Made by a program: the position numbers and the translations under genes. A model generated the notes under the pieces. It worked only from the letters and a program-made list of their open reading frames with translations. It searched no databases and was not told the DNA's origin. Shown here in pieces: positions 1,320 through 7,552 of a DNA stretch of 36,546 nucleotides. Within the stretch, counting starts at the first letter, position 1. Each line of letters starts with the position of its first letter. Origin of the DNA: an uncultured Clostridia bacterium (lineage in GTDB: Bacteria > Bacillota > Clostridia > Christensenellales > UBA3700); contig CALWHM010000017.1 in assembly GCA_944380395.1 (NCBI GenBank), forward strand, positions 1 through 36,546. The letters run 5' to 3'.

Positions 1320-1355
1320 AATATAAATTAAAGCGCCCGCGCGGCGCGCGGGCGC
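1320..1355 (-). terminator. Intrinsic terminator of the ABC transporter operon
   Basis: Read on the minus strand, a perfect 10-bp GC stem (GCGCCCGCGC with its complement, 1333-1342 and 1346-1355) is followed by a T-rich tail (TTTAATTTATATTT). It begins 5 bases after the ATPase stop codon. Confidence 0.85.
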
Positions 1356-1360
1356 GTGTA

Positions 1361-2950
1361 TCAATATTTTTCTTCGCTCTTTCGCAAGAACGCCTTGGTT
1401 ATCTCGCTCTTGGGGTGGTCGAACACTTCTTCCGGCGTGCCCGATTCTTCCACAATGCCGCCCGTCATAAACAGCACCTTGTCCGCCACGTCGCGGGCAA
1501 AAGCCATCTCATGAGTGACGACTATCATAGTGCGGTCGGAGGACTTCAAGCCCTTTATCACTTTGAGCACTTCTCCCGTGAGTTCGGGGTCTAAGGCGGA
1601 AGTAGGTTCGTCAAAGCACAGTATATTGGGGCGCATTGCAAGGGCGCGCGCTATCGCCACGCGCTGGCACTGTCCGCCCGAGAGTTCGCAGGGGTAGGAG
1701 CGCACTTTTTCCGCAAGTCCCACCTGTTCCAAAAGCGAGTAGGCGTAGCGCTCTATCTCTCCGCGGCGGCGGGAGGCGTACTCGTGCTTGTCGGGAGTTC
1801 CGCCCTTGGCTGCGCATTCGTGAGCCGTCTTGCGCGCGGCTTCCACGTCCTCTTTTGCCAGCGTTTGAGCTATTATCTCCGCCTTATTGCGCAATCTCTC
1901 CGCTTTTGCCGCTGCGCCCGCGGCTTCCGCGCGTTCCGCCTTGGAGAACAGGGAGAGCATTTTCAGCTCTTCGCGGATCATCAGGCGGGGCGCAAGCGTG
2001 ATGTTGTCCAGTACGGTGTATTGCGGGAACAGATTAAAGCTTTGGAACACAAGTCCGAAGTGCAGGCGTTTACTGCGAATATACGCCGCGGAGTTCATCT
2101 TTTTCAGCTCTGCCGCTCCCTCTTTGCGCATACGGGCAAACTCGGCTTTGTTTGCCTTTGCCTCCTGCGAGGATACGGCTTTGTCCATATCCGTGCCGCC
2201 GCAGGCGATATACTTCGCGCGCGCACGCTTTAATATGCGTTCGGGTACGTCCTTGGTATTCAAAACGGCGGCGTAATCTTCCGCGTTTGAGGAAGAAAAC
2301 AGCCTTTCCAGCGCTTCTTTCATTGCGGTGCGGAGCTGCTTTATTTCGCCCTTTATTATCTTTTCGGGATTGAGGGAGCTTTTCACCTGCGCTTCGCCGC
2401 GCATAGCGCGCTGTTTTGCCTGCTCCAAGGACTGCGCTATAAGTTCGCTGCGCCGCCGCGAGCCGTAAAGCTCTTCCGCCGCTTTGCGGGCGGCGTCGGA
2501 CAGGAGCGGATTTTTCAAATATTCAAACAGGTCTTCCGTTTTGTCCGTCACGGGCAGGGGAAATTCGCGCTTTAAGTCGCTTTCAAAGCGGGCGAGCGGT
2601 CCCGTCACGCTGCGCACGTACCTCAAAGAGCAGGAAAGGCGCCTTAGTCCCCTGCACAGCGGAGAAGACAGGGACGACGAGAGCGTGCCGTCTTCCATCT
2701 TCACCTTGGACATATCGAAGAGTACGTTGTCGCCCACGGTGAGCACGCCCCTGTCCGCGCGCTCCAAAAAGGTTATGCAGCGCAAAAGGGTGGTCTTGCC
2801 GCTGCCGGAAGAGCCGATTATAGCCAGCACTTCGCCCTTGTGCAGATCAAAGGATATGCCTTTGAGCACCTTGGTGGCGCCGAAATTCTTGTATATGTCC
2901 TCCACCTTCAAATAAGGCGCTAAGGAAGTTGCATTATTATTTTTATCCAT
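1361..2950 (-). CDS. Polar amino-acid ABC transporter ATPase with two large insertions
   Basis: This is the ATP-hydrolysing subunit of a polar amino-acid importer (GlnQ/HisP family), acting on the cytoplasmic face with the permease encoded just upstream. Family members are about 240-250 residues; this one has 529. The standard parts are intact: Walker A GSSGSGKT (46-53), Q-loop VFQSFNLFPQ (Gln303), signature LSGGQ (423-427), Walker B ILCFDE (443-448) and switch His480. The extra length lies in two places, about residues 81-293 between the Walker A region and the Q-loop, and about 325-400 between the Q-loop and the signature. Both inserts are rich in Ala, Lys, Glu and Arg and look helical. No frameshift or stop interrupts them. 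The start is ATG at 2950, one base after the permease stop, with AGGTG overlapping the permease end. A histidine substrate is inferred from the promoter. Confidence 0.9.
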   Translation of the reverse strand: MDKNNNATSLAPYLKVEDIYKNFGATKVLKGISFDLHKGEVLAIIGSSGSGKTTLLRCITFLERADRGVLTVGDNVLFDMSKVKMEDGTLSSSLSSPLCRGLRRLSCSLRYVRSVTGPLARFESDLKREFPLPVTDKTEDLFEYLKNPLLSDAARKAAEELYGSRRRSELIAQSLEQAKQRAMRGEAQVKSSLNPEKIIKGEIKQLRTAMKEALERLFSSSNAEDYAAVLNTKDVPERILKRARAKYIACGGTDMDKAVSSQEAKANKAEFARMRKEGAAELKKMNSAAYIRSKRLHFGLVFQSFNLFPQYTVLDNITLAPRLMIREELKMLSLFSKAERAEAAGAAAKAERLRNKAEIIAQTLAKEDVEAARKTAHECAAKGGTPDKHEYASRRRGEIERYAYSLLEQVGLAEKVRSYPCELSGGQCQRVAIARALAMRPNILCFDEPTSALDPELTGEVLKVIKGLKSSDRTMIVVTHEMAFARDVADKVLFMTGGIVEESGTPEEVFDHPKSEITKAFLRKSEEKY

Positions 2951-2951
2951 A

Positions 2952-3605
2952 TCACACCTTATAGTAGTTGAGTTTTTTCTCCATATAGCCGAAAAGCAAG
3001 GTCAGAATGCCGTTGAACACCAAATAGAACACGCCCGCATAGAACACCGGCCATATGACGGCATAAGTGTTTTGCAGGTTGTTGGCGGTGCGTACAAGCT
3101 CGTTTACCGCTATTATTTGGGCAAGGGAAGTATCCTTGACCAACGTTATTATCTCATTGCTCATAGGCGGCAGTATGCGCTTTATCATCTGCGGCAGGAT
3201 CACGCGGAAGAAAATCTGAATGCGCGTCATACCCAGCACGTATCCCGCTTCGTATTGTCCGCGGGGCAGGTTCTGAATGCCGCTGCGGTATATCTCCGAA
3301 AAATAGCAGGAGTAGTTGATGGTGAAGGCTATCACCAGCGCGGTCATACGTTCGCTGTATTGCCAATTGAACAAAAGACCGGGGCCGTAGAACACGACGA
3401 TTATCTGCAGCAAAAGGGGAGTGCCGCGCACCACCCAGATTATGGCTTTGAAAAGATAAGAAAGCGGCTTGAACCGCGAGGTGGAGCAGGCGCATACCAC
3501 AAGTCCGAGCGGAATGGCGAGCACGAGAGTAAGCGCAAAAAGCAGCACCGTTTTGCCGAAGCCTTCAAAAAGCTGTGCGGTGGCATATTCGAATGTCAAA
3601 CCCAT
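2952..3605 (-). CDS. Polar amino-acid ABC transporter permease
   Basis: A 217-residue inner-membrane permease of the HisM/GlnP (His/Glu/Gln/Arg/opine) family. Hydrophobic segments begin at about residue 15 (FGKTVLLFALTLVLAIPLG), and the cytoplasmic EAA loop is clear as EAGYVLGMTRIQIFFRVILP, which docks on the ATPase. The chosen start, ATG at 3605, follows GAGGTACTTATACTT, a good ribosome-binding site; an in-frame TTG at 3653 would add 16 residues but lies inside a terminator hairpin. Only one permease gene is present, so the channel is presumably a homodimer. It lies between the binding-protein and ATPase genes, downstream of an internal terminator. Confidence 0.93.
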   Translation of the reverse strand: MGLTFEYATAQLFEGFGKTVLLFALTLVLAIPLGLVVCACSTSRFKPLSYLFKAIIWVVRGTPLLLQIIVVFYGPGLLFNWQYSERMTALVIAFTINYSCYFSEIYRSGIQNLPRGQYEAGYVLGMTRIQIFFRVILPQMIKRILPPMSNEIITLVKDTSLAQIIAVNELVRTANNLQNTYAVIWPVFYAGVFYLVFNGILTLLFGYMEKKLNYYKV

Positions 3606-3620
3606 AAGTATAAGTACCTC

Positions 3621-3651
3621 AAAAAACGGCGCGGCAAGACATTGCCGCGCC
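3621..3651 (-). terminator. Internal intrinsic terminator between binding protein and permease
   Basis: On the minus strand a perfect 10-bp stem, GGCGCGGCAA-TGTC-TTGCCGCGCC (3628-3651), is followed by G and TTTTTT (complement of 3621-3626). It lies 14 bases after the binding-protein stop and 15 bases before the permease start. Such partial terminators normally let the binding protein be made in excess over the membrane subunits. Confidence 0.85.
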
Positions 3652-3665
3652 AAGATATTTTTGAA

Positions 3666-4511
3666 TTAAGCAGCTTCCACGTTGTAAGCGATGGGCGCAA
3701 ACAGAGTGTAACCGATGATTATCTTGCCCCTGGCGACGATGTAGTCCCAGCTGGACTTGTCGGAGATGCTGTCCCATTGAGAAGTGTATTCTATGGGCAG
3801 GAGCACGTCTTTAAGGCCGTACTTTTCACCGATGGTCTTTATCGTGTCGTTTGCCCACAGCTTGGCGAGGGAAGCGTTTATCTTGTCCATAAGCGCGGTT
3901 TCGCCCTTGCGCGCCGCAATGCCGTAATATTCGTCTTCTTTGGCTATATTCACTTCGGCTATCATCAGGCTGTCGGCATAATTGCTGCCCGTTTCGTTGA
4001 TGTAATAGCCCGCCATAACGCTGTCCATAACGCCGATGTCCGCGCTGCCCGCGTTGAGTTCGGTAAGCACGTTTATCTGCGCGGTCACGCCGATGAGCGT
4101 AGCGCCCAAATCGGTGATAAGCTCTGCGCCCGCGCTGCCGTTTTCCGCGGACCACTTGTCGGAAGCAAGCATTTTGTCCAAAGTGTCAAACTTGTCCGCG
4201 TCCGCCTTTCTGATGATGGCGACCTGTCGGTTGAGCATATAAGGCTCGCTTATCTCCCACGCAGCTTCGCGTTCGGGAGTGATGGTCATACCGTTCCACA
4301 GAAGATCCACGTTCTTGGATTCCAGCTCGTTCTCCTTGGTGTCCCAATTTATCTGGACAAATTCCACTTCCACGCCCAAATCTTCGCCCACGGCTTTGGC
4401 AAGCTCTATGTCAAAACCCACAAGCTCCGTTTTGGAGCATGCCGCGGCGCCGAGCACGGCGGTGAGGAGCACAGCCGCAAGAATGAGCGCGATAACTATC
4501 TTCTTTTTCAT
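3666..4511 (-). CDS. Amino-acid ABC transporter substrate-binding lipoprotein, apparently circularly permuted
   Basis: A 281-residue solute-binding protein of family 3 (SBP_bac_3), which captures an amino acid outside the cell and delivers it to the permease. The signal peptide ends in the lipobox AAAC (Cys25). Ligand-binding features include WNGMTITPERE (Arg81, the usual carboxylate-binding Arg) and VMDSV (Asp163, the usual amino-group-binding Asp). In normal members the first strand (consensus like GKLVVGTDATYPPF) follows the lipobox and precedes LVGFDIDLAKAI. Here LVGFDIELAKAVGEDL starts only four residues after Cys25, and the missing strand, GKIIIGYTLFAPIAYN, is found at residues 262-277 at the very C terminus. 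Total mature length (about 256) is normal, so this is a rearrangement and not a truncation. Start ATG has GAGGTG five bases upstream. Histidine as ligand is inferred from the shared operator. Confidence 0.9.
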   Translation of the reverse strand: MKKKIVIALILAAVLLTAVLGAAACSKTELVGFDIELAKAVGEDLGVEVEFVQINWDTKENELESKNVDLLWNGMTITPEREAAWEISEPYMLNRQVAIIRKADADKFDTLDKMLASDKWSAENGSAGAELITDLGATLIGVTAQINVLTELNAGSADIGVMDSVMAGYYINETGSNYADSLMIAEVNIAKEDEYYGIAARKGETALMDKINASLAKLWANDTIKTIGEKYGLKDVLLPIEYTSQWDSISDKSSWDYIVARGKIIIGYTLFAPIAYNVEAA

Positions 4512-4839: not shown

Positions 4840-6963
4840 ATGCAAGTTGTTAAACGTGACGGAACTTTTGCCGAATACGACAGGACCAAAATAGCGGTAG
4901 CCATAGGTAAAGCGAACGCGGACGTGGAAGAGAGCGAACGCGCGAGCGAGAAGGAGATCAAGGAGATCTTGGAGTATATCGAGCACAAAAACCGCAAGCG
5001 TATGCTGGTGGAGGACATCCAGGACATAATAGAAGAGCGCTTGATGGCATACGGGCACTACGAGCTCGCCAAAAAGTACATCATCTATCGCTTTACCCGC
5101 GCGCTCATCCGCAAGGCGAACACCACGGACGAAGCCATTTTGGGACTTATCCGCAACTCCAATAAGGATCTGATGGAAGAAAATTCCAACAAGAACGCGT
5201 TGGCTGCTTCCACGCAGCGCGACCTTATCGCGGGCGAAGTGTCCAAGGACCTCACGCGCCGCATTCTGCTTCCCGAAAAGATAGCAAAGGCGCACGACGA
5301 GGGCGTACTGCACTTTCACGACGCGGACTACTTTATTCAGCCCATATTCAACTGCTGCCTTATAAATATAGGGGATATGCTGGACAACGGCACCGTGATG
5401 AACGGAAAACTCATAGAAAGCCCCAAGAGCTTTCAGGTGGCGTGCACTATAACCACGCAGATAATTGCCGCCGTGGCATGTTCGCAGTACGGCGGTCAGT
5501 CAGTGGATATACGCCATTTGGGAAAATATCTGAGGCGCAGCAAGGAGAAGTTCCGCAGGCATTATAAGGAGATATTCCCCGACATCACCGATGAGGAGAT
5601 GGAAAAACTGCTTGCAGACAGGGTGCAGGAAGAGCTGCGCGCGGGCGTGCAGACAATACAATATCAGATAAACACGTTGATGACCACCAACGGTCAGTCC
5701 CCGTTCGTCACGCTGTTTTTGTATTTGGACAAGGATGACGAGTATATAGAGGAGAACGCGCAGATAATAATGGAGATACTGCGCCAGCGTTACGAGGGCA
5801 TAAAGAACGAGAAGGGCGTTTACATCACCCCCGCGTTTCCCAAGCTGGTGTATGTGCTTGACGAGCACAACAGCCTGAAGGGCGGCAAATACGATTATGT
5901 GACGGAACTTGCCGTCAAGTGCTCTTCCAAGCGCCTTTATCCCGACTACATCTCCGCCAAGAAGATGCGCGAGAATTACGAGGGCAACGTGTTCAGCCCT
6001 ATGGGCTGCCGCTCATTCCTCTCCCCGTGGAAGGACGAAAACGGCAACTACAAGTTTGAAGGCAGGTTCAATCAGGGCGTTGTCAGCATAAATCTGCCGC
6101 AGATAGCTTTGGCTGCCGACGGCGATGAGGAAAAGTTCTGGAAGCTGATGGACGAAAGGCTGCAGCTTTGCTTTGAAGCGCTGATGTGCAGGCACAACGC
6201 GCTCAAAGGCGTGAGGAGCGACGTTTCCCCCATACATTGGCAGTACGGCGCGATAGCCCGCCTTGACAAAGGTGAGACGATAGACAAGCTGCTCTACGGC
6301 GGATATTCCAGCATCTCTTTGGGATATATCGGACTTTACGAAGTGACCAAACTGATGACGGGCGAACCGCAGACCACGCCCAAGGGCGAGGAGTTTGCGC
6401 TGCGCGTTATGAACAAACTGCGCGAGACCACGGATAAGTGGAAGGCGGAGACCAACATAGGCTTTGCCCTCTACGGCACGCCGGCGGAGTCGCTTTGCTA
6501 CCGCTTTGCGCGCATAGACAAGGAAAAGTACGGCACGGTCAAGGACGTGACGGACAAGGGATATTACACCAACTCTTATCACGTGGACGTGAGGGAACAC
6601 ATAGACGCGTTCAGCAAGTTCTCCTTCGAAGCGCAGTTCCAGAAGATATCCAGCGGCGGCTGCATTTCTTATGTGGAGATACCCAATATGCAGCACAATT
6701 TGGAGGCTATGCGCGAGGTGGTCAAGTTTATCTACGACAATATCCAATACGCGGAGTTCAACACTAAGAGCGACTACTGCCACGTTTGCGGTTACGACGG
6801 CGAGATAATGATAAACGACGACAACGAGTGGGAGTGCCCCAACTGTCACAACAAGGATCACAGAAAGATGAACGTCACCCGCCGCACCTGCGGATATTTG
6901 GGCGAGAACTTCTGGAATTTGGGCAAGACCAAAGAGATAAAGGCGCGCGTACTGCATTTGTGA
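4840..6963 (+). CDS. nrdD: Anaerobic (class III) ribonucleoside-triphosphate reductase
   Basis: A 707-residue glycyl-radical enzyme that reduces ribonucleoside triphosphates to deoxyribonucleotides without oxygen. An ATP-cone (about residues 1-90, starting MQVVKRDGTFAEYDRTKI) senses ATP/dATP. The C terminus carries a zinc ribbon with Cys647, Cys650, Cys666 and Cys669 (CHVC...CPNC), then RRTCGYLGENFW, in which Gly685 is the expected radical site. Length is typical. AAGGAG precedes the ATG by 9 bases. It is one base upstream of its activase gene nrdG and is probably controlled by NrdR through the boxes at 4756-4803. No aerobic reductase is seen in the window. Confidence 0.98.
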   Translation: MQVVKRDGTFAEYDRTKIAVAIGKANADVEESERASEKEIKEILEYIEHKNRKRMLVEDIQDIIEERLMAYGHYELAKKYIIYRFTRALIRKANTTDEAILGLIRNSNKDLMEENSNKNALAASTQRDLIAGEVSKDLTRRILLPEKIAKAHDEGVLHFHDADYFIQPIFNCCLINIGDMLDNGTVMNGKLIESPKSFQVACTITTQIIAAVACSQYGGQSVDIRHLGKYLRRSKEKFRRHYKEIFPDITDEEMEKLLADRVQEELRAGVQTIQYQINTLMTTNGQSPFVTLFLYLDKDDEYIEENAQIIMEILRQRYEGIKNEKGVYITPAFPKLVYVLDEHNSLKGGKYDYVTELAVKCSSKRLYPDYISAKKMRENYEGNVFSPMGCRSFLSPWKDENGNYKFEGRFNQGVVSINLPQIALAADGDEEKFWKLMDERLQLCFEALMCRHNALKGVRSDVSPIHWQYGAIARLDKGETIDKLLYGGYSSISLGYIGLYEVTKLMTGEPQTTPKGEEFALRVMNKLRETTDKWKAETNIGFALYGTPAESLCYRFARIDKEKYGTVKDVTDKGYYTNSYHVDVREHIDAFSKFSFEAQFQKISSGGCISYVEIPNMQHNLEAMREVVKFIYDNIQYAEFNTKSDYCHVCGYDGEIMINDDNEWECPNCHNKDHRKMNVTRRTCGYLGENFWNLGKTKEIKARVLHL

Positions 6964-6964
6964 T

Positions 6965-7552
6965 ATGAACTTTGCAACCATAAAAAAATACGACGTCGCC
7001 AACGGACCGGGCGTGAGGGTGTCCTTATTCGTAAGCGGTTGCACACATCGCTGCAAGGGCTGTTTCAACGCGGAGGCGTGGGACTTTGATTACGGTCAGC
7101 CGTACACGGCAAAGACGGAAGAGGAGATACTTTCCGCGCTTGACCATTCGTATATAGCCGGGCTTTCGCTTTTGGGCGGAGAGCCGTTCGATCCGCGCAA
7201 TCAGGAGACGGTGTGTGGCTTGCTCAAAAAGGTGAGGGCGCGCTTTCCGCAAAAGGACGTGTGGTGCTACACGGGCTATACGCTGGACAAGGACCTTAAA
7301 GAGGGCGGTGCGGCGTATACTCCGTTTACAAAGGATATGCTTGAGAGCATAGACGTGATCGTGGACGGAGAGTTCGTGGAGGCGCTGAAAGACATAAAGC
7401 TGAGGTTCCGCGGTTCGTCCAATCAGCGCATTATAGATTTGAAGCGCACGCGCGGAAGCGGAGAGATAAAACTTTGGCTGGACGGCGGCGTGGACGGCAC
7501 ATATTACGCGGATAAGGATTTGGCTAAGGGCAAATCCGAATATAAGGGATAA
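6965..7552 (+). CDS. nrdG: Anaerobic ribonucleotide reductase activating protein (radical SAM)
   Basis: A 195-residue radical-SAM activase that installs the glycyl radical on NrdD using a 4Fe-4S cluster and S-adenosylmethionine. The cluster motif C-x3-C-x2-C is seen as SGCTHRCKGCFN near residues 21-32, and SLLGGEPFDP matches the family SAM-binding GGEP region. The ATG lies one base after the nrdD stop; no strong separate ribosome-binding site is visible, so translation is probably coupled. Slightly longer than the approximately 155-175 residues of many homologues, the extra being a C-terminal tail. Confidence 0.97.
   Translation: MNFATIKKYDVANGPGVRVSLFVSGCTHRCKGCFNAEAWDFDYGQPYTAKTEEEILSALDHSYIAGLSLLGGEPFDPRNQETVCGLLKKVRARFPQKDVWCYTGYTLDKDLKEGGAAYTPFTKDMLESIDVIVDGEFVEALKDIKLRFRGSSNQRIIDLKRTRGSGEIKLWLDGGVDGTYYADKDLAKGKSEYKG

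Follow-up and report, generated by a model that had tools for sequence, protein, structure and literature searches.

The window gene most probably encodes a working, membrane-anchored binding protein of a polar amino acid importer that has the type II fold (Pfam family PF00497) and a circularly permuted chain, in one of at least four permuted arrangements that recur in the Clostridia; we put the probability of this reading at approximately 0.88. The window is the whole stretch of 36,546 nucleotides that was analysed, and the features of interest are listed in Table 1. The sequences themselves show the permutation, its conservation, the operon, the existence of several cut points, and more than one origin of the permuted forms.

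Table 1. Positions of the binding-protein gene, its segments, and the two transporter genes that follow it in the window.
Feature	Position	Strand	Basis
Apparently circularly permuted family-3 solute-binding lipoprotein, type A arrangement, 281 aa	3666..4511	(-)	
Signal peptide and lipobox, residues 1-25, lipid-acceptor Cys25	4437..4511	(-)	sequence
Fold body, residues 26-238, from the LVGFDIELAKAV segment to the canonical C terminus (EKYGLKDVLL)	3798..4436	(-)	
Linker PIEYTSQWDSIS, residues 239-250, from the old C terminus to the old N terminus	3762..3797	(-)	
Moved N-terminal segment, first β-strand (DKSSWDYIVARGKIIIGYTLFAPIAYN), residues 251-277	3681..3761	(-)	
Polar amino acid ABC permease, ordinary order; ATG start at 3605 possible	2952..3653	(-)	
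Amino acid ABC ATPase, 529 aa, two large insertions	1361..2950	(-)	

The open reading frame was found where the original prediction had placed it, and its translation has the order of segments described there. Cys25, which is invariant among the six aligned members of the genus, is followed by SKTE and then directly by LVGFDIELAKAV, and GKIIIGYTLFAPIAYN is located at residues 262-277, with DKSSWDYI (residues 251-258) ahead of it. The canonical order of the family, in which strand 1 comes first after the signal peptide, is thus absent, and the strand-1 segment occupies residues 251-277. The mature chain of 257 residues is near the normal length, as had been claimed, compared with 240-242 residues in the canonical relative L033. 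The protein passes the gathering score of Pfam SBP_bac_3 (PF00497) with 104.7 bits against a cut-off of 26.4; residues 27-232 match profile positions 18-130 of 132, and the first 17 positions are absent at the N terminus. Thr76, Arg81, Ser126, and Asp163, which we take to be ligand-site residues, are also invariant among the six aligned genus members. Judged by its sequence, the protein is a permuted variant of solute-binding protein family 3 and not an ordinary member. The host genome encodes one further SBP_bac_3 protein, which is distant and has the canonical order.

The wrap-around alignment proposed in the original prediction was made against the solved structure 3hv1. In the phmmer comparison, residues 30-236 of the window protein correspond to residues 43-251 of 3hv1, and a second, weak stretch (-2.3 bits alone) places residues 251-277 on residues 10-37. 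After rotation of the chain, a single continuous stretch is obtained (residues 2-243 on residues 11-251 of 3hv1), with a gain in whole-sequence score from 99.7 to 106.1 bits. The C-terminal 31 residues reach a top score of 93 against the N termini of 25 of 68 canonical relatives, compared with a maximum of 48 in 2000 shuffles of the same residues (0 of 2000 reach the real score), and their best local match begins within the first 40 mature residues in 67 of the 68. Once wrapped, the window protein and L033 are identical at 126 of 233 positions. The Pfam match is hardly altered by rotation (106.1 versus 104.7 bits; profile start at 17 versus 18), so that Pfam alone does not reveal the wrap-around, which is shown by the comparisons with the PDB entry and with the canonical relatives. 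A full-length match to an unpermuted homologue is obtained only when the window protein is wrapped. A search for the unpermuted version, which had likewise been suggested, yielded the canonical proteins L033 and L035 in the same family of genomes. The wrap-around alignment, these unpermuted relatives, and the conservation across the genus described below all support the claim that the gene is circularly permuted. The window protein should fold and bind like a canonical protein, since wrapping recovers the complete chain and the ligand-site columns are retained.

A structure prediction, also called for, was run with AlphaFold on the window type A protein and five relatives (a shallow alignment), which gave a mean pLDDT of 56.6 that is high only around residues 91-190; the same procedure for the type B2 protein L008 and one relative (again a shallow alignment) gave a mean pLDDT of 40.0. 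Foldseek with the poor model of the window protein retrieved type II binding proteins with TM-scores of approximately 0.4, and matches at this level cannot place the moved strand 1. Both models are of low confidence and were kept out of the evidence.

The same order, with a near end-to-end match (residues 1 to 278 or more), is found in 7 of 7 genomes of the genus, that of the window included. The public genome collection contains five relatives with 76-85% identity, including Candidatus Alloclostridium intestinigallinarum and Candidatus Caccalectryoclostridium excrementigallinarum; these five are probably the same genomes as five of the genus set. The dN/dS ratio of the mature protein against the five public relatives is 0.14-0.23 (five comparisons), which shows the window gene to be under purifying selection, and the ratio for the 27 moved codons alone is noisier (0.12-0.67). 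An assembly error, the pitfall against which the original prediction had warned, is therefore very unlikely, given the same order in all seven genomes, these dN/dS ratios, and the lead position of the gene in its operon. Those sources that bear names are metagenome assemblies, which is what an assembly or binning artefact would need, but the order recurs in independent genomes and permuted genes lie inside long contigs, such as the 1.3-Mb contig of genome G201 with its type C gene; we regard such an artefact as having next to no chance of explaining the order of the window gene. Scarcely more credible is that the gene is a decaying remnant that is missing its N-terminal strand and has acquired a chance-like stretch at the C terminus. 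The unrotated Pfam match, which lacks the first 17 profile positions, is what such a remnant would give, but it would hardly display dN/dS ratios this low in all five comparisons, a frame open across the match in all seven genus genomes, an accompanying operon, and conservation of the moved segment.

The window gene is the first in its operon and is followed by the permease gene and then the ATPase gene, which is the composition of a polar amino acid operon. The permease and the ATPase score best against models of ectoine, cystine, arginine, and glutamine systems without reaching any of the curated cut-offs, and the permease passes only one model, that of the general domain TIGR01726. On these grounds the operon is assigned by sequence to a polar amino acid importer. 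The ATPase differs in its spacing from the 152 ATPases of the fetched loci: its Walker A-Q-loop distance is 256, compared with a median of 56, and its Q-loop-LSGGQ distance is 121, compared with a minimum of 54. Of the two inserts, the first large one was encountered only in the window and in five genus loci (the sixth, G006, is cut off), and the second varies widely in length (54-173). Elsewhere in the window, at 4840-7552, two adjacent plus-strand ORFs resemble those for an anaerobic ribonucleotide reductase and its activase.

A search of 100 relatives revealed that the second half of the protein precedes the first half in some genomes, and a canonical query was therefore doubled (X-X), which allows the cut point to be read straight from the matched span; the doubled sequence was the mature chain of L033 (240 aa). 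Four permuted arrangements besides the canonical one were distinguished, namely A, which is that of the window and has its cut after strand 1, and B1, B2, and C. Within the order, 180 of the 397 genomes searched gave a match, and at least 63 of the 180 are permuted by their spans; among the matches listed, the permuted genomes include at least 28 of type A, at least 22 of type B2, at least 5 of type B1, and at least 8 of type C. Within the class, 266 of 391 genomes matched, and among the matches listed 18 are permuted besides the window's own (8 C, 5 B1, 5 B2, and no A). At the level of the phylum, 162 of 299 genomes matched, and the permuted ones besides the window among the matches listed are G834 and G860, both of which were confirmed. 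A doubled GlnH-like query matched 210 of the 299; among the matches listed, G519 and G876 are permuted, and G914 has a staggered tandem. These counts indicate that permutation is concentrated in the subfamily of the window protein and in the Clostridia, yet is present elsewhere. Four permuted proteins (L135, L210, L221, and L222) belong to the more distant GlnH-like subfamily, and L210 and L222 come from outside the class.

Typing of 174 distinct ORFs gave 82 canonical, 31 A, 31 B2, 13 B1, and 16 C proteins and 1 fragment (L036, at a contig end), which was left out of the counts; the sample is non-random, as permuted loci were preferentially fetched and identical C-terminal ends were counted once. 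Two proteins (L009 and L120) had a misplaced automatic start and were therefore assigned to B2 by hand. With these two rows excluded, the mature chains start, in the canonical numbering of 240 residues, at 25-33 in A, 102-122 in B1, 130-149 in B2, and 173-184 in C; the ranges of B1 and B2 thus represent neighbouring zones and not sharp points. Some B2 termini (AVGK or ALGK) look, by eye only, suggestive of leftover duplicated residues. The simple lipobox pattern is present in 88 of 91 permuted and 74 of 82 canonical ORFs. A permease gene adjoins 31/31 A, 30/31 B2, 14/14 B1 (the fragment L036 included), 14/16 C, and 77/82 canonical ORFs, and all 31 type A ORFs have both the adjoining permease and an ATPase on the same strand; the permuted ORFs without an adjoining permease number three, two of which are at contig ends, while L189 is not. 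Ligand-site columns, scored in 165 proteins under labels that we take to reflect their function, are preserved to a similar degree in permuted and canonical proteins. The binding Asp is found in 89/89 permuted and 76/76 canonical proteins, the Thr of NGMT in 83/89 and 70/76, and the carboxylate Arg, which the window protein has, in only 62/89 and 53/76, respectively.

The ATPase gene starts approximately one permease length past the binding-protein gene in most permuted loci, so that these operons probably contain a single permease gene and form a homodimeric channel. From the fold topology as we understand it, the lipid anchor presumably stays on lobe 1 in arrangement A and is shifted to lobe 2 in B1, B2, and C. 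We hypothesize that a homodimeric channel may accept either docking orientation.

Close pairs of permuted and canonical proteins share 65-68% identity, namely L098 (B1) and L161 (160/245 identical), L155 (C) and L159 (175/265), and L182 (B1) and L171 (157/232); between permuted types, L093 (A) and L048 (B2) are identical at 147/253 positions. For the careful binding-protein tree, the proteins were rotated, and proteins with a wrapped alignment score below 290 and near-duplicates (>72% identical and of the same type) were dropped, which reduced the 174 rows to 165 and then to 115. On this tree of 115 proteins, the five arrangement labels require 18 changes, and the distinction of canonical from permuted requires 13, of which 10 are forced by well-supported branches (12-13 in bootstraps). 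A single clade of all permuted proteins is rejected (p-AU 4e-68), as is a single clade of type C (7.6e-9) or type B1 (5e-7); these are the three groups tested, and they were defined by their cuts, although a tree had been seen before the tests. The tree of the adjacent permease, an unpermuted gene, has 110 rows, omitting the 5 of the 115 without a permease row, and requires 25 changes (14 for canonical versus permuted, 9 of them forced). Where binding-protein genes were exchanged between operons, events may be overcounted, notably on the permease tree.

In both careful trees, the canonical proteins L033 and L035 are well-supported neighbours of type A proteins (98/86 and 100/97), and the wider clade around them in the binding-protein tree (99/91) is permuted in 44 of its 52 members. 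A reversal to the canonical order is therefore possible, and the change counts do not separate gain from loss. The type A protein L093 falls inside a B2/C group in both careful trees. The trees disagree on the placement of the window's own type A: a quick tree joined it with the type A proteins of genus g4 (SH-aLRT 84), the careful binding-protein tree groups the window's genus with B2 (90/97), and the permease tree groups it with L034, L037, and L053 (92/77).

As to the origin, the original prediction had proposed tandem duplication followed by partial deletion. By this route, the mature domain would have been duplicated in frame and in tandem behind one signal peptide, and both ends of the duplicated chain would then have been trimmed with retention of the signal peptide. 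In the permuted chain, the N-terminal strand segment comes after the old C terminus via a new linker, and the new termini probably lie in the loop that follows strand 1. The accessible text of PMC3320104 gives permutation by duplication as the general model of natural permutants and has it predict tandem intermediates, whereas its examples there are of other folds. No tandem double-domain gene was found in the window's subfamily, in which the longest matched stretch among 211 ORFs is 292 residues (approximately 480 would be expected of a double); matched lengths were used, as the automatic two-domain test is weak with a doubled query. A candidate double in G950, whose span looked longer than one domain, proved canonical. 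In the GlnH-like subfamily, L215 (801 aa; 1452-3854 (-)) and L223 (779 aa; 1344-3680 (+)) comprise, in one protein, a second half, a whole domain, a first half, and a permease, and L224 comprises two canonical domains and a permease; Pfam finds three, three, and two SBP_bac_3 stretches in L215, L223, and L224, respectively, and one permease domain in each. By their sequences, L215 and L223 appear to be staggered tandems of two permuted domains. GlnP-type proteins, in which tandem domains are fused to a permease (6h30; L224), have the in-frame tandem that the duplication route needs, but they are in the canonical register, permease-fused, and unpermuted. The linkers of other type A proteins and of some B2 proteins resemble the window linker by eye, which fits a shared fused ancestor. 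The proposed duplication and trimming is the most plausible route and gains from the staggered arrays of the related subfamily, although the double expected in the window's own subfamily was not encountered.

Fission and fusion, i.e., the splitting of the gene into two and the rejoining of the pieces in reverse order, would lead to the same final order, and PMC9815098 describes engineered lobes of a type I relative that can exist singly. We nevertheless consider it improbable, as no half gene occurs among the 211 ORFs matched at E 1e-8 (the shortest stretch is 185 residues, in L036 at a contig end), cut A takes off one strand, which is unlikely to be a stable piece, and the staggered tandem arrays exist in the related subfamily. 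More weight must be given to the explanation that a few old permutations were spread by horizontal transfer or gene replacement, with far fewer independent events than the trees suggest; it agrees with the presence of every arrangement type in several genome families and with the differences in places between the binding-protein and permease trees, e.g., for the window's genus. We still find it unlikely, because the binding-protein tree, which traces the gene rather than the genome, needs 18 changes all the same, a single origin is rejected for types C and B1 and for the permuted forms as a whole, and the cut points differ. We lean, with some reserve, towards the reading that the amino-acid-binding proteins of the Clostridia form a natural permutation series, with at least 10 switches between canonical and permuted order, at least four chain regions involved, re-permutation, and perhaps reversal (L033/L035).

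In the open-access literature searched, a naturally permuted type II binding protein was not encountered, and a doubled query against the PDB showed no wrap, by span reading, among the 60 listed of 86 matched sequences. The only natural precedent found in that literature is MglB-2 (Tp0684) of Treponema pallidum, a type I sugar binder of another family. In the accessible portion of PMC4990184, MglB-2 is a naturally permuted, lipid-anchored ABC binder of Type Ic (Cluster Bc) in which ligand binding and closure are kept, so that a permuted lipoprotein is able to bind and close normally, and its relatives occur in Gram-positive gut bacteria. Thus, MglB-2 resembles the window protein as a permuted, lipid-anchored ABC solute-binding protein; it differs, as described in the same portion of PMC4990184, in its type I sugar fold, in which a single cut has displaced three strands of the N lobe and the hinge is crossed a fourth time, whereas the PF00497 amino acid binders of the window family have at least four cut points and multiple origins of the permuted forms. 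The window protein does not belong to Type Ic, as its Pfam and PDB sequence matches are family-3 amino acid binders. The canonical PF00497 proteins, of which 3hv1 is the nearest solved, share with it the near-whole wrapped chain, the lipobox, the permease-ATPase operon, and the ligand-site columns, and differ in chain order.

Most of what is known about natural circular permutation comes from comparing distant proteins. In the present case, relatives of permuted and of canonical order that are 65-68% identical precede the same kind of permease and ATPase, several cuts coexist, and both directions of change may be present in the family; with such close pairs and coexisting cuts, the route to new termini and their cost or benefit are directly testable. 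One-pass domain annotation hides rearrangements of this kind, as Pfam simply gives SBP_bac_3 for the window protein, and the view of one window could not show that permutation recurs at several cuts in many relatives. The family also offers ready-made natural permutants of a fold that is permuted by hand in sensor design. If the permutation series is real, arrangements B1, B2, and C would have exchanged a lipid anchor on lobe 1 for one on lobe 2, and a symmetric homodimer built from a single permease may tolerate, or even reward, such a flip of the lobes.
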